DNA from: Apostichopus japonicus
Lineage: Eukaryota; Echinodermata; Holothuroidea; Aspidochirotida; Stichopodidae
DNA length: 64,000 nucleotides
Assembly (NCBI RefSeq): GCF_037975245.1
Contig: NC_092574.1
Coordinates: 17,890,713-17,954,712 of the forward strand
Direction: 5' to 3'
The translations under genes were made by a program, and so were the position numbers. This document shows positions 26,701 to 64,000 of this stretch, in pieces. Numbering within the stretch: position 1 is the first letter of the stretch; every line of letters begins with the position of its first letter. The notes under the pieces are model-generated. The model was not told the DNA's origin. It did not search any database and worked only from the letters and a program-made list of their open reading frames with translations.

Positions 26701-29700
26701 TGCTGTCGTCTGTATACAAAAATCAGACATGTAAGTACATTTTGAAAATTGCAAGGGCGTAGGAACCGGGGGGTGCTGGGGGTGCCAGCCCCCCCAGTGA
26801 AAAATGTGGAGGGGCAGAAGTATCATTCTGCCCCCCCGCTTCGCAAGTCAGAAAACCCCTTTGTCATTTCCAAATGAGAAAAAAATCTCATTTGGAGCAC
26901 CAAATTGCATCTAAGGCCAGGTGAAAATGCAAAATTATTTACAAAATGGAGTGGGTGTTGAAGTGTGTTACATTGCACCAAATTGCATCTGAGGCCACCT
27001 GGAAATGCCAAAAAATTCCAAAGGGGAGGGGGACACCCCCTCCCCTTAGACCCCTCCCCCAGGCCGGCCATCAGTCTTCAGCCCCTCCACTCAAAAGTAC
27101 CTTCCTACACCACTGGAAAATTGAGTAACTTGCGATCATCTCAAGGGTAACCATTCTCCCTCCACTGTTGAAGATGCAGTTTGGGTTTAGATTTGCTAAG
27201 ATCTGGTGGTGCTACCTTAGCACCTGAGGTGATTAGCACCTATGGTGGGTGCTACCTTGTCTGGTGGTGCTTCATTGTACAGTTAATTAAGAGAAACACC
27301 AGGGACATGAAGAGGTAATACGTCACAATTTGTGAAACCCCAAACCAGTCTGAACTGGATCAGTAACAATCAGTAACGAGGAGCAACCCATGATCATGCA
27401 ATAGGCGGAGTAGATTCGGGTATGTTTGAGCGTTTCCTGGGCTTTGTCAGAATTTGCACAAAGTTACAATGAATCCAAAACAAAATGCAGTGAATCTCTT
27501 AAGCCTTTAGTCTATCACTATTCGGACATGCAGACCAATCTGGATTTTTTGGAAGATAAAAGATAAATGCTGATATACAGGTTTTCATTTATTCATTCTG
27601 GAGTTTGCATGCATCTGCAGTTCTCAAAATAGTCAGTGACAACCAGACATCTATTGGAAGTAAAGTATTCTGGTGTATTACATCCTCAGACCTACAGCTT
27701 CAGATGATCAATTCTGTGGAATTTTGAAAGCCTTTTAATAGCTTTTCCAAGTGATTGATAAATACTATGGCGAATGTCTCCCTCTCTTTTTTTTCCAGTT
27801 ACATGTTCGATGAGCCCTCCAGTTATTTAGACGTCAAACAAAGGTTAAAGGCCGCCTTGAGCATCAGAAATTTGATAGATTCCGACAAGTGAGTTTGATT
27901 ACAAGAAGTGAATCTGTGATGGTTTTTTTTTTGCAATGTTGTGTAGCAAATTTTTAGCAGGAACTAGTTACTAGATGGATTCAACAATGTATTTAAATAA
28001 AGGGTTAGTCAGAGAGAAATTCATGATTGCAATTGTTATCAGAAGATCATAATTTCACACAAATAAACTTTCCTAACCTGTCAAATAGTGCTTGAAATTG
28101 TGTTGTATAGTTTATGAATTTTAACTTATTTTGGAATTTTTAAACAATCGAGTTCATTTAGCTTGACTAGGCAATTTCATTTCTCCTGATCACGTTTAAT
28201 GAAATGTCCAAAGCTTGAAGCCATGTGATCTGATTCTGTATTGATTAATAGTATTTTCCGAAAGGTGTCTGGACGACAATTTAAACAGAATCTTGAAGAG
28301 TTCAATACTTCATTATTCTTTTGATGGAAATATCTCAGAGTGTCTTAAATTTTGATGATTTGCGATACTCAATAATATTGTAAGTTACTTTGGTGGAATT
28401 GGCAAACAAGTGCAAACAGCTGATTTACTGGAAAGGATTCAGTTCTCTCATGTTTTCGTTGATAGTGGATATAATTGTGGGCTTAGAGTAACTCTTACAA
28501 ACCTCTTCTTCCTTTATACTCTTTTTCTTCGTAACTTACAGATACATCATCGTAGTGGAACATGACCTTAGCGTGTTGGATTATCTGTCAGACTTTATCT
28601 GTTGTTTGTATGGTGAACCTGGTGCCTATGGTGTAGTAACTATGCCCTTCAGTGTCAGAGAAGGTAAGTACATTGGGGGCTTCCCTCCTGGGGGTATCTA
28701 AAATATCATATTATATTGTGACACATTTCATAGTATTTTTGTCAAAAAGTTAAGGGTACGGCTTTCTCTAGATTTCTGGAACAGTGGTAGTGGTGGTTGC
28801 TCAAGATCAAGCGTTTGGTAAGGAAGTATTTCCTGCGATAGCTGCGTGTAGTGTACCCTATGCAAAATCAAGGTGACAGAAGTATATTCGTCCGCCTGAT
28901 TCGACCCTTCTCGTTTTATCCCAGCACATTTAAGGACTTAGTTACAGGGTTGTTACCATAGTGGATAGCCCTGGGAGGACCTGGCCAGCACTGGAATCTA
29001 CTAACAGTCGCTGTTTTCAGTATTTATATTTTCTGTGGCCGCTGAGAGCATTGAAGTATATTTGTCAGAGAATATTTCAGATGCTAACATTATGCACACA
29101 GAAAACCTGATGCACCTGTTTTGCAATAGTGAAGCATACTGGACTGAATTTTGCAATGCTCAAGGGTCACACGGTCATCTCAAATTATGACAAACAGAAA
29201 GCATTGTTATTTGAAAGATACAGCAGTAGGTAATCTTTGGAAGTCAAGCAACAAGCTTCCTTTTTTATGTAATATGCTAAATTATCTTGTGTTATCAAAA
29301 TGATTGAACAAAAAATAAACTGTTATGACAATCGTCTTGCAACAGGAATTAATATATTTCTGGATGGCTACGTCCCAACCGAAAATTTACGATTCCGAGA
29401 AACTTCGTTGGTCTTCAAAGTCTCGGAGACGGCAGAGGAGGAAGAAATCAAGCGGATGGCCCACTACAAGTATCCTGCAATGTCAAAGACGCTAGGTAGG
29501 TTCCTTATAGGACTTCATGATAATTGATCATTTATGAGAGCATGGCGGCCAACTAGCTAAGGCATCGGACTCGTGATCCAAGGATTGCTGGTTCGATTCC
29601 TGCCTAGTTCATTGCGTTGTGTCCTTGGGCAAGATGCTTTATCTCAATTGCTTCTCTCCACCCAGGGGTTAAATGGGTACCTGTGAGGTAACTTGTCATT

Positions 29701-48500: not shown

Positions 48501-51500
48501 AGTGTCAAGATACTCAGTAGGTTCGCTAATAGAATGTTTTCTTTTCTTGCAAATACTTGCTGTTCAGATCTCAAAGTAAAACCTATACATACGTGTCCTA
48601 AGATCAAAGTATCCGCTGACCTATTCCCAAATTTGTTTACAGACCCTGAACAATTTAGTCTTAAACAAAATGCTTGTTTCTGGAGGATGTAGTACACAAA
48701 AGCAATCAAACACTCGCCTGAAAAATTGGGGTCAACATCAACATCATGTCCCCAGATTAACCGAAAGAAAATATGGTTACTATAGAAATATAGCTTGTTT
48801 TCTAGGATGAATTTTGTCCGAATAACCTTTTATACACTTATACATTATTTGTGTGCCCAGAATGTACCTTAGGTTCATGTATCGCTTTTTGCTTTCTTCC
48901 TATATTTAATTTTGAAGTCTTTGGAGAAGATCCATGCTATGTTGGAGGAGGCAGAAGGTGGACGTCACAGACCCTCGAGGATGTTCAAGAGGGGAGGGCA
49001 AGAAGATGGAAGAGGTTGGAGGAGGGATGATTATGGCAGAGACGGGTACACAAGAAAGAGCAGTGGGGAGGAAAGAGGGGAATCTAGAGATAGATCCAGA
49101 AGGGAGGGTGACTCTGGTAGAAGTGATGGGTCAAAGAGGGAGGCACATAGAGATGGAACAAGAGGAAGGTTTCTAAAACCAGGAGATGGAGACAAAAATG
49201 AGAATGATGAGGAGCGGGGAAGGAGAAAAGATGAGGAGGAGGGTACTAGGAGGTCAAGTGGAAGCTTAGGATCAAGTCGGGGACAATTTAGAAAACCGAA
49301 AGACGATGAGAGTGCTCCATCTGCAAGACGGATGGAATCAAAGAAATTTCCTTCGGGGTTAGGATCTTTGAGAGGACAGTTTAAGAAGCCAGGAGAGGAT
49401 GATGGAAGAAGAACATCAGCTGGGGGTAGCAAAAGTCGAGCAAGTGGGGAAAGTTGGAGGAAAGCTGGATATGAAAAACAGAAGACTGATAGTCCATCTA
49501 GGTCAGAGGAGACGGAAAAGAGAAAAGAATCAGATCAGAATGTTGCTGTCAAGAATAGAATCTCAGAGAACTCCACATCCTCCTCCTCCTCATCATCATC
49601 GGGGGAGGAGGAGGAGGAGGCACCACCAAGAATTCTCAGCAAGGATGAGATGAATCAACTCGGTGCCAAGATAGTACGAGCTGAAATAATGGGCAACCAG
49701 GTGAGATTCCTTGAAATTTGATCGAATGTTATTCTGGTTTGAATATGAAAAGATAGGTGAGATTCGTTGAAGTTTATTAAATATTAAAAGTTCTGTTTTC
49801 TAAATGAATATCATCTAAGAGAAGATTTATTGTCAATGAGAATTTTTGTCCGAGACTGACGTTTAATTTTTGGACTCCTCATAGCTTATAATTGCAGATT
49901 TAGAGCAAGTTTTGGAGACGGGTCTCAGTTTTGACCGAAATAATTATGAAGACATTTGATTGACCATTCATCATAAATCTGTATTTCTCTGTGAAGTTAT
50001 TTCAGTTTATTATTTTGCCAGTTTTAAGTCACCTCAGCTTCCATCGGGAAAACTCAACATGTAGCAATTTCCAGATTTTCGGTCAGCAGTGTGCGGTGGT
50101 TCGTGACTTAAACTTGTGACCGTAATGAGGGCAAGTGGTTAACAGAAAACATCATTGTGTGTACTCATCAGGTACTTCAGCTAGCCAGAGTCAGTCGTAA
50201 GACCATGGGTTGCCAAGACTACTGTACTGTAAACTACTGTACGTCAGGTCATGTTGGTCAGGTTCATTCGGGTTGTCACCCTAATTCAGGTCATCACGTT
50301 AATTAGGGTCAGTGTGCAGCCATCTTTACTCTTTATTATGGTTAAAAAATATGATTACAACATATTTTTGAAACTTTATTTTTCATTTTCTTTACAATTT
50401 TTAATCATCTTTTAGAAATTGGTGGATGACCTCAAGAAACAGTTAGAGGCAGCGAGACAAGTCGCCGCTGCCGGACCAAAGGCAGGTGAAAGGAGAAGTG
50501 CTATCTCTAAAGATACCCAGCAGGGTAAGGAGAGACAGAGCAAGGAAGAGGAGACGGTGATCTTGAGCCGGACGAATCGGATGGGCCAGAGCTATCCTCT
50601 ACCGGAGGAAGCGGGCTACGTGGAGAAAGGAGGCAAGAAGAGAAGAAAGAACAAAGGGGTAAGACAAAGGTCAAGGGTGACTTTATTGAGAATAACTCAG
50701 CCAGATGGGAAACGGTGTCTGCACCATTTTCTCGTAAATGAAAGTCGGAATCTTCGTTCGTTTGAAATTTGAATTTCCGTCCGTCGACAGGTGGAGACGC
50801 ATGGCAAGGACGGAGAGAGGGAACGTTACTTTGGCAATGACGATAATGTGGACCTCAAGACCATGGTCCAGCAGGAGAAGATGGGCCTAGCAGAGGACCA
50901 GAATCGTATGTTCGCTAAGGCCCAAGCTAGGGTGAGTTAAAAATGATCTTGGTAGGATGACTTTTGTCAGAGGTTTAGTCTTGACATGTCATAGTCCAAG
51001 GAGAAAGAAGACTCGATTGAACAGTAACGATGCTATTTCTGTTCCAGTGTTTTAAGATATTCAGCTTTAAGATGCTTAAGATGCTTCCTGTATGGAATGC
51101 TCCTTTAAGGCCCAAACTAGTGATGATGTCAGTTTCTCAGTGTAGGATCAGATGTTGTTGTTGATTCATTGTTCTATGAAGTCTAACAACTGAACCCAAA
51201 TATATTATGATAGTAGTGTTTCTTAATGTCGTACAAAATATGAAAAGTTAAATTTGTGCCTCAAGTCATCCGTTAAAGGTAGTCTGTATAGGCCCCAAAT
51301 TATAGCATGCTATAATTGCTAGAAGTTTTCAAAAAGTACTTTCTAGTTGGTCTTTACTCTCCAAATTGTTCTTAGACAATTTTAAGGAACACACAAGATT
51401 ACTGAATGTCTAAGTGAGGAAAATTTCCCACGAAGGTTGTAATATAAACAGTTTAAGAATGTTGACCAAAGGTGACCATATTTGAATATGTAGCATATTT

Positions 51501-54500: not shown

Positions 54501-55559
54501 AAACATTACAACTTTAAAGTAAGGTAATAGATGTCAATTTCCGGGAGTGTCCCCAGATTTTGTATACAGTTCCCAGGGGAAAAGTGTCCCTGGAAATGTC
54601 CATGTATTTTATGTACTGTCTCAGGAATATCCCTTTCTTTGAGAAAAGGCCTTTCATTTCTACCACATTTGCCTCTTGTTTGTCGATTCAGCTTGAACGT
54701 AAGCTGTTTTTGTTCATGTTAATAACAGGACAAGCGTAAAGTTCATTCATGTCTCAAAGATTAAGGCAAAGCAGATCTTTAAGTTGTTTTGTAGCCTATT
54801 ATTCAGATGAAAAACATCATCTTGTCCTTAATGATGAAAAATAAGATATTTCTATATTGGATGAAATATTTAGAAAATGTACAACTGGACAGCCCAGTTT
54901 TCGAGCACAGGACAGTCCAGTTTTTGAGCACAGGACAGCCCAGTTTACGAGCACAGGACATGTTATTATAAAAGTTACCTGTTTGAAGTCCTGTTTAAAC
55001 CAATTAACTCTCCTTTTTTTGGAAGTTTGTTGATAATTCCCACATCCCGTCTTTTCAGTTTGGAATTGGGTTCATGCAGATTTTTTAAGAGCCTTTTCAT
55101 TTCATTGAACAGGATGGGTCTTTTCTATAGTAAAGTTGGTTATCTTTGGTTAAAATTTTAACGTGTATTACAAAGCAAACACATTTAAGTTTATTTCCTT
55201 TTACCCATTTTACCTTTGAACAGAAAGCCATCCAAGAGTCAGAGACAGAATGGTCACAGAACAAAAAATTGATAGACACCAGGAAGAAAGATATCCGACA
55301 TTCTGTCCCAAAGGGCTTCCCTTACTTCAGTGTGGACTTTGGCCTGGATGGTGGATTTGCCCATGTGATTGAAGATAACCAGCTGTTTCCGCATTATTTC
55401 GGTAAAGAGGTCTTAGGAGGAATGATGGACCTGGAGCCGAGATTGTGGCGGAATCCACCAAAGGAGAACTTTGATTCTCAGAGGCAAAAGGTCATCGAAT
55501 TTGGCTCCTGGTGGAAACCCTTCGATTGGACTCAGAAAATTGACAGAGAGAAAACATGA
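42547..55559 (+). CDS. CWF19L2: CWF19L2, spliceosome-associated CwfJ-family protein, 13 coding exons
   Basis: Nuclear protein related to yeast Cwf19/Drn1, tied to late spliceosomes and lariat turnover. Exons: 42547-42642, 43540-43644, 45919-46029, 46565-46696, 47197-47322, 48151-48360, 48918-49700, 50416-50658, 50791-50931, 52126-52332, 53475-53591, 54038-54193, 55224-55559. All junctions are phase 0, giving 920 aa (human: about 894). The N-terminus is charged, with a Lys-rich block in exon 3. Exon 6 carries [14 protein letters not shown] and [10 protein letters not shown]. Exon 7 is a low-complexity Arg/Glu/Ser/Gly region. The C-terminal CwfJ domains contain [13 protein letters not shown] (Cys698, Cys701), the HIT-like [10 protein letters not shown] (732-741) and [19 protein letters not shown]. 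Two donors are weak (GTTAAT after exon 1, GTTAGT after exon 3); exon 4 has a CTAAAG acceptor. These choices rest on protein alignment. Confidence 0.95.
44150..45287. repeat. Array of nine inverted/direct 14-15-bp motifs in CWF19L2 intron 2
   Basis: The motif (G)ATGATGTTYGTAAC occurs forward at 44150-44164, 44334-44347, 44708-44721 and 45091-45105. It occurs as its reverse complement at 44182-44195, 44360-44373, 44557-44571, 44919-44933 and, with changes, 45275-45287. The pair at 44334/44360 has perfect 14-base arms around 12 bases. GGTGTC or GTGTCT commonly accompanies the motif. A 362-bp tandem duplication carries two of the pairs (44557 and 44919). Confidence 0.88.
51273..51523. mobile_element. 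TTAA-bounded inverted-repeat element, copy 1
   Basis: Starts TTAAAGGTAGTCTGTATAGG then CCCCAAATTATAGC, and ends ATTTGGGGCCAATACAGC then ATACATTAA. The termini are inverted repeats of about 25-28 bases with TTAA at both outer ends. The element is 251 bp, non-coding, and lies in CWF19L2 intron 9. It is related to the copy at 56438-56678 in the opposite orientation. Confidence 0.82.
51635..51800. repeat. Degraded hairpin repeat, copy 3, with inverted second arm
   Basis: 51635-51680 (GCCAGATGTTCCAATCACTG then GCAGGATCATCTTCACAGGC) aligns with the block at 26108-26156 with one indel and several substitutions. About 100 bases on, AAGATTGAAAGGTCAGGC (51781-51798) matches the reverse complement of the same block, so the two form a weak inverted pair. 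The overlapping 89-codon frame at 51580-51849 is unlikely to be real. Confidence 0.5.
53648..53700. repeat. Dispersed hairpin repeat, copy 2 (reverse orientation)
   Basis: AGCCTATGAAGAAGATCCTG then CTAGGATTGAAAACGTCAGG then CCCACTTTTACACA. It matches the reverse complement of 26108-26156 over roughly 48 bases with few changes, and has the hairpin GATCCTGCTAGGATT at 53661-53675. It lies in CWF19L2 intron 11, about 57 bases after the exon 11 donor. Confidence 0.75.
54887..54955. repeat. 23-bp tandem repeat, three copies
   Basis: Units GGACAGYCCAGTTTT-CGAG plus CACA at 54887, 54910 and 54933, exact period 23 with one to three changes per unit, in the last CWF19L2 intron. Confidence 0.9.
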
Positions 55560-57210: not shown

Positions 57211-59049
57211 GGCCGTTCATTCAGCGATGTTCATATAATAAGTGAGGGCTCACTTCCAATTGGACCGAAACGTGATCTCACGTGTTCCTGTACAAATACA
57301 GCGCAAGTATGTTATCTTCACTGGACTGAACCTGGCAGGCAGAGCTAGCAAACAGCAAATTATACTCAAAAGTAGGTATAATGCGGTCACTTGCGAGTTA
57401 ACGAGAGTGCGGGGTGACGAGAGTGCGACAATTGCTACCCCGCGTAGTTTTTTTCAAGACTCGTATTTCATGATTTTCAGCACTTGGATTTTCACGCCTA
57501 GTATTGCACTTTGTCATTGATTCGATTTTGCCGCTGCCGGAATACGCCTTCCTGCTGCTTTGTAGAACCACTTCGATAATCACCAAAAGGAGACAACAGC
57601 ATCAAAGGAGACAACAATATTCAAGGAGACAACAACATTGAAGGAGACAACAACATAAAATGAGACAACAAGTTGACAACAACATAATTACAGACAGCAT
57701 AGAAGTTAACAACATAATACATTGCCCTTTCGGCGTTCCATACTTCTGTCTTTGGTCTATCTCATCAATACGATTTCAGTAATCGGGAGCACCTGAGACG
57801 GACGTGACCTCGCTAACATTAATAAGTAAGGTTAAAATTTTGGAAACGATTGAGCACGGTAACTGACATTTAATTTGAGGTTGATGCTGATCACTACTAA
57901 TAATCAAAGATAGCGAACCGTTTTCCGCACTTCATAAAAGTTGCATAGTATTTTTGTACCACCTTCCTGTTTTTTAACGTAGGCTAATGTTTTTCTTATA
58001 TGTTATTATACTGTTATGTTGGTACCTAATACGCGAACTTCCTGGATTCAGTGAAAACAGGCCTAGCCTATCTCCCTCATGTATCAAATACACAAGACAG
58101 GCGTACGTTTGCGCACATGTCATACATCCCGTGTATAGTGTAGGCACAGTCACGTATAGACCCAGACTCCAGGATATTATCGGTGCGTGAGGGTTCAATT
58201 TGGGTATACATTTCACTGGAAGCCCTTTCATACTCATACTATGGTTAGGTGATAGCATGACTGTGAGTTTCTTATGTTATACATTGCAAGTTTTTGCTAC
58301 TGACAAAGTTGATATTTATATTACCAGTGGCCTATGGAAGAGGGGGAGGGAAGGGACCATGTCCCCACCCCTGAATCAGATGGTCACTCGTGGGGCATGG
58401 TTTAGTTGGGGAAAATAGTTCAATCGGGGGACTATAGTTCAGTCAGGGGTTTTACACTGTCACTAGTATGATGGGTGCCCCCTCCCTCCTATTTACAGCC
58501 TCCCACAAAGTATTTATTAGCAAAACCTTGCATTTAAGACTACTTATGTATAACTAAATCATAGTCCAAATATGCTTCAGAGGGCACTATATGACTTCTA
58601 AAGTTTTAATTTGATTTTGCTAGGGGAGGACCCATACACCCCTAAAGAGGAGATTGCTTCAGTGACTCCAGTGCAGGCTTGCTCCTTTCTAAAAGCCCCT
58701 CCCCACATTTGAAATCCTGTGCACGCCGTTGGCCTAGACTGTAATTGTAAACAGATAAATCATCATTAATGTGCATTTGGATCTCTTCCATTCTACATGT
58801 GCCTATTAACCATACCTTGTGGCACTCACAACATTCTAAATCTTCATGAAGGTACAGTGCTGTAGTTACTAGCATGAGTAGCTGTGGCATATCAGGAAAG
58901 GCCTGTTTGCTGTGAGATAAGAAACCCTAGATAATAGTAGCAGGCTAACTGTTATTTAAGCAAAATATACAAAATCATCTTTCATTTTTAGCACTTGTAT
59001 TTCCCCTCCTCCCTTCCCCTTCAAGTTTTCTTTCTTCTTTTCTTTTTAG
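57211..59049. other. Region upstream of the unidentified coiled-coil gene
   Basis: No conserved exon is recognised. The first identified coding exon begins directly at an acceptor, so a 5' exon should lie here. A donor-like ATAA|GTAAGG near 57826 is one candidate, and the CG-containing stretch 57400-57560 is a candidate promoter. Both are guesses. Confidence 0.3.
57585..57690. repeat. Tandem repeat of AAGGAGACAACAACAT
   Basis: About five diverged units of 18-20 bp (AAAGGAGACAACAGCATC, AAGGAGACAACAACATTG and so on). The array lies upstream of the coiled-coil gene. Confidence 0.85.
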
Positions 59050-62000
59050 ATGGAAGAATCACCAACCTGCAGTACTTCAGTTCTAGAAGGAGAACTATGC
59101 CCAAAGTGTTGTGAATTACAAAAGGTAGGTCTTAGGAAGTAGTCCTGTTAGACCCTAGTTATAAAACTGAAGATTAGAATGAAAATGACTAAACATAGAT
59201 CAGCGATCAAAACAAAAAAAGATCAACCAACCTGTTGCAAATCACTTGCTTGCCAGTGACCAAAATGATTCTTGGGCAGATAAATCTAGATAAGGAAAAG
59301 AAAATTTCTGGGAACTTAACCTAAAGACCATGGCACCATTCGGCTTAAACATCAGAAATGACCTGACGTCCAAGATAAACCAAAACAATGCCTTTGAAAT
59401 TACGACGGAATCGGATTAAAATAAGCTGACACGGATTAAAAATAATCCAATTCTCCAAAACTTCTGCTAATCCAGCAGTCGCATTGACTTCACTGCCATG
59501 CCGACATTCAAATGTTTCAATTCCTGCTATGCACTGAAGAAGAGCTAGTTTAACTCTAAATCTCTGCGAAAAACAAACATTGGCTGATTCACCTCCAATC
59601 ATTTACTGAATTAATTTTTTATCTCACTTGAGATCCAGCCTTTCTCTAAATGCAGCATAGTTGTTTAACAGTTTTTTCCCTAATTATAAAAATTTTCTAA
59701 ATTATGTAAAACAGATCTAGGTAAAATAAAGCTACAAGCAAAAAACAAAACAGTCTAAAAGTACAGTAGTTTCACGATTGCAGTTTTTCCATACACTTCA
59801 CTGTTTAGTTCTACCATGGAATTCCCACCCTCATGACTAACACAGTGTGTATGCCTATTATTTGCATAGGAGCTGTTTACAGTATGGGAGTTCTTTTGTT
59901 CAGTATATGTGTACATTGAACAATGCCTACATGATATTTCCCTTGATACCACTATACCAGTTATGCGTCAGCTCTCTTTTAACACAAGCAAGTGTGTCAG
60001 CAGGGGTTATTATTAGCACATTCTTGTCCAAGGGAGTGGAGGGGAGAGTAGAGGACTTAAAAATATGTTCTTAACATCGACTACAGGGAGACATGTTTTT
60101 GCTGAAGGGACAATGCCCGACACAAATATTTTTGGGATTTTGTGTCCTTGGGATACAAGTTTCAATATATTCTCATGATTAATACTACTGATCCATGTCA
60201 CTGCTTTTATCCAATGGACCATATCACTGGTTGTACTCTTAGGAATACAAGAACATTATTAGTTACTGACCCAGCTGCAGAAAAGGCCAAAAACCTCTTG
60301 TGCTGTCATTAGTTATTGTACCACTCGGAACCCTGTACAGGTCAAACAGAGGACGGTAACAGAAATTGACTTATTACATTAGCAGAAAAAAAAATTCCTC
60401 AACATCGAGAGTTGCTTGAACAGAAAGTGGTTTTTGATATAAGTGTCTTGTATTAAGGTCACAACAATGTTTAAGAAGACAGTTGCTTTTCAAAAGAAAA
60501 CTCGTTCATTATAACTGTACCTCCCATTTAATCGGGGATCAATTCGTCCATTTTTTTTGGCATCAAAAATATATTCCCCACTGACAAATGGAATTGTCTA
60601 AATTTTCTGTTCAGGTCTTTGTGGCGTTAAAAAATATCACTGTTTTTAGATATATATGTATACACAAACTAAAACAGTACAAGTGGAGTTTGCATCACTA
60701 TACATGATTGTTTGAGAAGCATGATGATAATCAATTCTGACACATTTAAGCATTATTGATGGCGGCATATTACCTCCTTAAGCTTGGCAGGAATGGCTGT
60801 GTAACATGGGCTGCCTAGTTGCAACAAGTACAGTGCTAACACTTAATGTAGTTATTTTGCAATATCAGTACTTGAGTAATGTTCTAGGTTTAATGTTGTT
60901 TAAATGGCTACACTAAATTACTTGTTAGTCATATGCTATCTGCAGTTACCACCGAGCGTTCCACTCCTCAACCAAAGAAATATATATTGTCAACCCTACG
61001 TAAGAGGCATTTAGATATAATGAAAGACAACAAGCCACTGAAGTACAATAACTTCCATTGTTTGATGCAATGTTTTCAAGTTTATTGGTTAAATATATTC
61101 ATTATTTGCAGGAGGTGGATACTCTGAAGAAACAGGAGACATTTTTTCTTGCCCTGAAAACCAAAATCATCAAAACTGAGTAAGTCAAACGAAACAAATC
61201 TTGCTTTTGGAGGCTGGGGACAGTGGCATGGGATGGTGGCACAGGAAGGTAAATTCCTTCTTTATCCCTGGTTGCCTGCATAAGAAAGAACAGGTCGAAG
61301 AAACAAAGCTTGTTTGCAAAGTAGAGTGCATGTGTTCATTTGTTGAACAGCTTCTCTTCTGTGTGTATACAATATGGTTATAAGATATATCAAAGATTGC
61401 CCATTTGGAGTAGTCATTTCTTGGTGGTTTTGTTATGATTTCTAGATTATTGACTATATAGTACACACACACCTTGGTAAAAGCGGCAAGATGAACTGAT
61501 GAATTTTCTTGCCTCCTCTAATACTTGTGTCTAGCCTACTTATGACACATTTTCCTGATCTCCCTAACCTACTAACTGATAACACTTTAGCACTGCGACC
61601 CCACTCCCACCCCACCCCTACCCCTTCCTCCCAATCCCATATCTGAGACATTGCCTCATTCAGAGTCTACCATTTCGAAACTGGCGAACACTTTTTCTGC
61701 TGAGTTCTTGTTACAATTTTCAGTAGAAAGTTTTGAAGATGAACTGATAAGTTTTCACTTACATTCTCAGTAAATATAATGATTGTATTTGTGAATTGTA
61801 ACTTGCTTTGTCATCTTCTAACATACCTTTAATTTGTTTTCTTTCTCCTTTCTTTTCTTCTTTTTCCCTCGCAGTGCTCTTATCAAGAAGTACATGTCCA
61901 AATGTCAAGATATCCTTTACAGTTCTTAATGTATACGAATAATGTCATGGTTACCATTTTAAGTCGGCCAGACCCCCAGGATTAGGTCGGATAGTTCGGC

Positions 62001-63752
62001 AATTCCGTGCACTGTCCTCCATCCCGCATTACCTCTTGTCTGATGCATGAATGTCTGGCATTTTTAATGAAAAGATTTGAAGCAAAACATAAAGAATCAA
62101 TGTTCATTAGTTACAGAACCCGTACCGCTTTGTATTCTTAAAGCTCCAATTGTACCTGTACTGTATTGGCATCATATTGCATTTCCTAGTGTTGAAAAAT
62201 AAGTACAATTTCATTTACAATTTTACTATGATCTGATTTAACTGTATTGAATTTGTTAAATAGTTTTCGTGTACATTTAGTCATATTTTCATCGTGTAGT
62301 ATGTAAGATGCAGGGTTTCCAGAATCTTTGCAATATGATTCCTGACTAGCAGCACATGTCATCTCCTAGATTCCTATGATACATGTCCTCCATTTTGATG
62401 TCATGTCAGGGGCCACCCTATTACCATAGTATAGTATAATATTAATGTTTAGTACAGCAATATATTTTATTTTTTCTCAAGAAAATGAAAATACTTTGGT
62501 TGAGTGGTTTACTACAGAACTTCTACATATCTTTGCATTTGCATAGTGACCTACTTCTATATATATATATACTGGCCAAGAATTATAAAATTTTATCTAC
62601 TTGCTACAAAATTGCCAGTATTTAAGAAAATCTACAGGCTGATATCAAATTCCCACTTGCAGGTACCTTTAATTAAGACAAAAGCAACATCAAATTTTTG
62701 CAATGGCAGAAAAGTGCTAGTACCCTTTATTTCTACTGGCAAGTCCAAAATCGACTGGCACTTAGCCAAGTAATTAGCCTGAGTTTTGAGGAAGAATTTA
62801 TCATTTGAGTTTTGCATTGCAATTACACGACTTAATATAAATGTTGATCTATAAGTAGTGAGAATTCGTAATGTTCCTTGAAACAATACTTTGTACAGAA
62901 ATGCATCTGCCTGTTTGTGTAGCAACTAGTCATCTTGTATATATTGTTTTGCTATGCTATCAATAGAAACTAAAAATAGCTAAGTTCTGAATTATCCGTG
63001 ACATCACCATGGCAACCATTCATGATCTTCCGTCGTTGACAATTAAAATGCTGACTAATTACTTTCCATGTACTATGTTGAAGTTTTACAAGCAACAGTC
63101 TATCTTAAATTATTTAATAATTTTATGTGGTGATATTAAACATGAATAGGAGTCCTGTCAATACCTCGTAGCATTTTAAAATGCATGCACAGAATGTACA
63201 TAGATGAAACATGGTTTGTTTCAGATCTGACTGCAGGAAACACATACTGTACAGTAGTTATGTGGAACTATTCTTGTGTAAAAGAATCTATTTCAGACAT
63301 CACATTTGAGACTTAATGACTGTGAAGGGTGAGGGGGGATGTGTGTGGGGAGGGATCAGTCGGAAGAAATGGGCTGTCCCAAAGTTTTCATTGACTACCT
63401 TCACTTATAAAAAGTTAGTTCTACAAATGTACGACTTGTTCTTTTGAGATCTAATGAAATGCCAAAAAAATCTTATGAGTTAGCGGGTGGGTGGGGGGGG
63501 GGAGGAGGGGTGTGGGAGTTGGAAGGGATGGTCCCTCTGGAAATTTAGTAATAGCTTTCCTTGATTTATACCAAGGAAGTACCCAAGAACTGTTATATTT
63601 TGCTTGTTGAAATCAACTTACCCATTTGAGGTTATAACATGTTAGTGTTTCTGTGATTAAACAATAAAAACTTCCTTAATTTGTACAATACAGGCCGAAG
63701 AACAGGAGAAAAAGCTTGAACTTCTTGCTTGTGAGAATGCTGTCTTAACTCA
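59050..63752 (+). CDS. Unidentified coiled-coil protein, 5' part (runs off the window)
   Basis: Four exons join in frame: 59050-59124, 61112-61179, 61875-61909 and 63692-63752. They give about 79 residues starting MEESPTCSTSVLEGELCPKC. The acceptor TTTCTTTTTAG abuts the ATG, so the start may be this ATG or lie in an upstream exon. The peptide contains a CPKCC motif, then heptad-like charged sequence (ELQKEVDTLKKQ, LALKTKIIKTDALIKKYMSK, AEEQEKKLELLACENAVL) typical of a coiled coil. Phases: 0, 2, 1 (the AT-AC intron), then 2 at the final donor CA|GTGAGT. If the third intron is not removed by the minor spliceosome, the frame meets TAA at about 61928. I do not recognise the family; Golgi or centrosomal coiled-coil proteins are possible, but nothing visible decides it. 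Confidence 0.65.
61910..63691 (+). other. Probable U12-type AT-AC intron
   Basis: The donor TGTCAAG|ATATCCTTT at 61909/61910 is a perfect match to the U12 AT-AC donor consensus. TTCCTTAAT at 63672-63680 matches the U12 branch-point consensus (TTCCTTRAY). The intron ends ...CAATAC|AGGCCGAAG, with AC at 63690-63691, about 12 bases after the branch A, inside the normal 10-16 window. Removal joins G|AG (Glu) and continues an uninterrupted coiled-coil frame. No GT donor near 61909 gives a phase-compatible alternative. Confidence 0.9.
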
Positions 63753-64000
63753 GTGAGTTATCTTTGCTTTATAGTTGTATCTGTTACTCAGTCGCTTTCA
63801 GCTATTTATTATTTGTAGTTGCACTGTACCACACAAGTTAGTTAAATATCTATATAAATCCGGCTTTTAGGACTTTATTCTTACAAAATTTGGGTTGCAA
63901 ATGGTGCTTTTGCATATTCTTATGTAATTTTCAAAATAGCAGATCGGTTTAAATATAAATAAGCCGTAAACCTTTGAGATGGATACTAAAATTGGGCGGA
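63753..64000 (+). other. Intron of the coiled-coil gene, cut by the window end
   Basis: Begins with the donor GTGAGT at 63753. No further exon is visible before the right edge. Confidence 0.6.

Follow-up and report, generated by a model that had tools for sequence, protein, structure and literature searches.

A predicted U12-type AT-AC intron in the putative ICE1 gene of the sea cucumber Apostichopus japonicus

Gene structure and identity at the locus

The window analyzed in the present study is a 64,000-nucleotide stretch of the A. japonicus genome (contig NC_092574.1, positions 17,890,713–17,954,712), and its sequence, together with the DNA downstream of it, supports the assignment of a previously unnamed coiled-coil gene near the window end to ICE1 (KIAA0947), which codes for little elongation complex subunit 1. 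ICE1, a protein needed for the production of spliceosomal RNAs, serves as the scaffold of this complex. Four N-terminal coding exons with compatible phases were recognized (Table 1), and their joint translation is MEESPTCSTSVLEGELCPKCCELQKEVDTLKKQETFFLALKTKIIKTDALIKKYMSKCQEAEEQEKKLELLACENAVLT. The start codon immediately follows an AG that resembles a good acceptor, and the 5′ UTR is therefore likely to contain an intron whose end coincides with the ATG; exon 3 is likewise preceded by a good polypyrimidine-AG acceptor. All introns of the gene model other than the one between exons 3 and 4 are of the GT-AG type. Further coil-like exons, a 1,173-codon open frame with a high content of acidic and polar residues, and additional exons follow downstream on the same strand. 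The N- and C-terminal parts of the model were connected through their position and strand and through predicted exons that form an in-frame chain, some of the middle exons being uncertain.

The next gene upstream contains an exon matching Pfam CwfJ_C_2 and, together with the charged open frame located before it, looks like the spliceosome-associated CWF19L2. The only Rfam match in the window was a marginal tRNA-like one.

Table 1 Features of the putative ICE1 locus and its surroundings (window coordinates unless indicated)
Feature	Position	Strand	Remarks
tRNA-like match	29538–29611	+	30.7 bits, cut-off 29
Open frame upstream of ICE1	48912–49721	+	Charged
Exon of the next upstream gene	55146–55559	+	Pfam CwfJ_C_2, 125 bits
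Acceptor-like TTTTTAG	59030–59050	+	Immediately before the ICE1 ATG
ICE1 coding exon 1	59050–59124	+	MEESPTCSTSVLEGELCPKCCELQK; donor score 6.1; N-terminal similarity to the human ICE1 sequence assumed here
ICE1 coding exon 2	61112–61179	+	EVDTLKKQETFFLALKTKIIKT + GA; ends in phase 2; GT-AG introns on either side
ICE1 coding exon 3	61875–61909	+	35 nt; (GA)T ALIKKYMSKCQ G; ends in phase 1 at the AT-AC donor
Predicted U12-type AT-AC intron	61910–63691	+	1,782 nt, phase 1; third intron of the ICE1 coding region
5′ splice site ATATCCTTT	61910–61918	+	Directly after base 61909; full U12 donor consensus
Branch-point sequence TTCCTTAAT	63672–63680	+	Fits TTCCTTRAY; near the 3′ end
3′ splice site AC	63690–63691	+	12–13 nt past the branch adenosine
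ICE1 coding exon 4	63692–63752	+	61 nt; (G)AG AEEQEKKLELLACENAVLT CA; ends in phase 2 ahead of GTGAGT
Repeat with SGRWFGLCYGWPFM-like units	79400–80100 (joined-region coordinates)		~15.4–16.1 kb past the window end; units in several frames

The earlier note had placed both exons flanking the AT-AC intron in one coiled-coil gene, and this placement was supported and made specific as ICE1 by an alignment with the human protein and by a Pfam match. The human ICE1 N-terminus is taken here to read CQGCASLQQNLNEYVEALITLKQKIINTDNLLTEYQKKCDE, with a C-x-x-C/coiled-coil region CQGCASLQQ...LKQKIINTDNLLTEYQKKCDE. Exons 1–3 aligned with residues 20–62 of this assumed sequence with 17/44 identities (E 2e-05 in a two-sequence comparison) and an alignment score of 76, while 1000 shuffles gave scores averaging 31 and reaching 61 at most; exon 3 resembles the segment LLTEYQKKCDE of the assumed human sequence. 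When the assumed sequence was compared with single exons by tblastn, mostly noise was obtained, and the signal came from the spliced peptide only. The joined 54-residue peptide gave nothing useful in a Pfam scan and a PDB sequence search.

Since the human sequence was an assumed one, independent support was sought in the downstream exons. The joined C-terminal exons matched Pfam ICE1_C (PF25817) with 29.3 bits (cut-off 27, E 8.9e-07) over model positions 1–81 of 193. An exon with part of this match is present in a single copy in the genome and is located on the same strand, 12 kb beyond the window end. With PF25817 as the query, a six-frame genome search provided no match, probably due to the splitting of the domain over several exons. 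The finding of such a domain near the C-terminus of a long protein agrees with the literature on ICE1, in which the conserved domain has been termed a putative MIF4G domain (PMC5896957). The last ~110 residues of ICE1_C could not be recovered from the downstream DNA that was searched, which leaves the 3′ end of the gene model incomplete. The repeat with SGRWFGLCYGWPFM-like units listed in Table 1 is located between this missing 3′ end and the last of the ICE1 exons that were identified.

Sites, phase and frame of the AT-AC intron

Direct reading of the sequence from 61860 to 63760 confirmed the coordinates, donor, branch motif, AC end and spacing of ~12 claimed in the earlier note, as well as its claim that the G|AG join restores the frame. 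The intron opens with ATATCCTTTACAGTT and closes with ACTTCCTTAATTTGTACAATAC, and the intron end is 13 nt away from the first and 12 nt away from the second branch adenosine. The features that mark the U12-type AT-AC class, namely, the donor ATATCCTT(T), the branch TTCCTTRAY, the AC terminus and a restored frame, were all found. The intron is like other animal U12-type AT-AC introns in its donor ATATCCTTT, branch TTCCTTAAT, 12–13-nt spacing, AC end and non-zero phase; nothing is unusual here beyond the last letters of the branch, which are AAT, one base off the AAC that ends the commonest minor-intron branch consensus.

The junction 61909/63692 reads CAA G|AG GCC, and the peptide across it is DALIKKYMSKCQ-E-AEEQEKKLELLACENAVLT. 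Retention of the intron would yield ...KCQDILYSS-stop, i.e., a stop six codons further on (read-through peptide DALIKKYMSKCQDILYSS-stop), in agreement with the early stop that had been claimed for read-through. Leaving out exon 3 breaks the frame and leads to stops with either acceptor. According to the computed frames, ICE1 would be truncated within its first ~80 codons in both cases. Minor introns are known to be biased against phase 0, and the phase 1 seen here is in line with this (PMC10639083).

The chance occurrence of the motifs was estimated in 24 kb around the gene (56001–80000, the last 16 kb lying beyond the window end), with dinucleotide shuffles as the background. The combination of TTCCTTRAY with an AC after 7–13 bases occurred once in this region, exactly at the ICE1 intron (shuffle mean 0.2), and ATATCCTT occurred twice (shuffle mean 0.6). 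Three [AG]TATCCTT sites were present on the plus strand in 104 kb, and only the one discussed here lies at the end of an ICE1 coding exon in the model. Single motifs proved to be common when the whole genome was searched with a loose donor pattern, so the case depends on the combination of motifs plus the frame. Seven AT-AC junctions between the exon 3 and exon 4 regions keep exon 4 in frame, and both U12 motifs are found at 61909/63692 only.

The assembly containing the window (671.6 Mb, 35 contigs) was also searched for the minor-spliceosome snRNAs at Rfam cut-offs, and one above-threshold match each was obtained for U12 (116 bits), U6atac (104 bits), U11 (89 bits) and U4atac (72 bits); the RNAs required for removing the ICE1 intron are therefore encoded in this genome. 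Positions 19–25 of the U12 gene (TAAGGAA) are antisense to the branch-site TTCCTTA over 7 consecutive nt, and near the 5′ ends of U6atac and U11, AAAGGA of U6atac is antisense to TCCTTT of the donor (6 nt) and AAAGG of U11 to CCTTT (5 nt). With these pairings, U11 and then U6atac would base-pair with the donor, and U12 with the branch. Recognition of both elements by U11/U12 would be followed by the replacement of U11 by U6atac and by removal of the intron with its AT-AC ends, these recognition and exchange steps being established for the minor spliceosome, and the joining of 61909 to 63692 would restore the N-terminal coiled-coil frame.

Alternative explanations of the junction

The feature is very probably a genuine AT-AC intron of the U12 type, the third in the ICE1 coding region, and would presumably be spliced at its AT-AC ends in cells. 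This is also how it had been read originally, and the donor, branch, spacing, phase, frame, four snRNA genes and lack of a credible GT-AG option all argue for that reading. Ordinary GT-AG splicing, perhaps with a cassette exon inside 61910–63691 or with exon 3 skipped, would require the U12-like motifs to be coincidental and is considered highly unlikely. GT dinucleotides do occur within exon 3, and an AG (63692–63693) stands right after the AC, but only one GT-AG junction between the same two exons keeps the frame, and its donor (−8.9 bits) and acceptor (−6.7 bits) both score far below background. This very low-scoring sole option, along with the stops that follow exon skipping, makes the major-spliceosome reading not credible on sequence. 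Moreover, the resemblance of exon 3 to ICE1 speaks against its omission, and the joint probability of finding both U12 motifs by chance at this fixed pair of positions is ~2e-10.

More improbable still is a U2-type AT-AC intron removed by the major spliceosome. Although the two spliceosomes can each handle non-standard termini under some circumstances (PMC10639083), the donor carries the full U12 consensus, the branch carries the U12 consensus at tight spacing, and the 3′ end is devoid of a strong polypyrimidine tract. The least probable explanation is that the two exons derive from different genes or from a pseudogene fragment; against it stand the fitting phases of the four N-terminal exons, the frame running via predicted exons into the 1,173-codon frame and the same-strand ICE1_C exons, and the single-copy state of the tested ICE1_C exon.

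Relation to known minor introns and possible significance

In the mouse, Ice1 is named among the minor-intron-containing genes (PMC8034651), so the existence of a minor intron in ICE1 is already known. A literature search for a stated position of this intron provided only that gene-level statement. The two animals share the gene family and a minor intron within it, and the sea cucumber intron may be orthologous to that of mouse Ice1. AT-AC introns account for ~26% of human minor introns (PMC10639083). Minor introns also occur in the snRNA-biogenesis genes INTS4, INTS7 and INTS8 (PMC9881141). In these genes, as in ICE1, a minor intron is located in a gene aiding spliceosomal snRNA production, which makes a circular dependence possible; however, they belong to Integrator, whereas ICE1 is a little elongation complex subunit.

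Because the little elongation complex acts at Pol II snRNA genes, whose transcription ICE1 stimulates, and because ICE1 would itself carry a minor intron, coupling between the supply of the minor spliceosome and the production of its snRNAs is possible, and because ICE1 would need the minor spliceosome and retention would lead to a premature stop, the intron could be thought of as a switch. In human cells, ICE1 knockdown led to moderately lower Pol II occupancy at snRNA genes and to lower INTS9 recruitment (PMC7044329), and in the fly, the little elongation complex is reported to have U12 among its snRNA targets (PMC6199344). Nonsense-mediated decay is promoted by ICE1 (PMC5896957); at the same time, inhibition of the minor spliceosome in the mouse is reported to have had no visible effect on this decay (PMC8034651). 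In view of the latter observation, an ancient regulatory switch coupling minor-spliceosome supply to its own snRNA production and conserved to vertebrates is regarded as unlikely.

The ICE1 intron appears to be an ordinary, good and well-supported example of a rare intron class. Gene predictors limited to GT-AG and GC-AG introns would split or truncate the ICE1 N-terminus in this genome. The occurrence of a minor intron in the snRNA-biogenesis gene ICE1 would now be extended beyond the mouse, and a specific feedback hypothesis is made testable by it.
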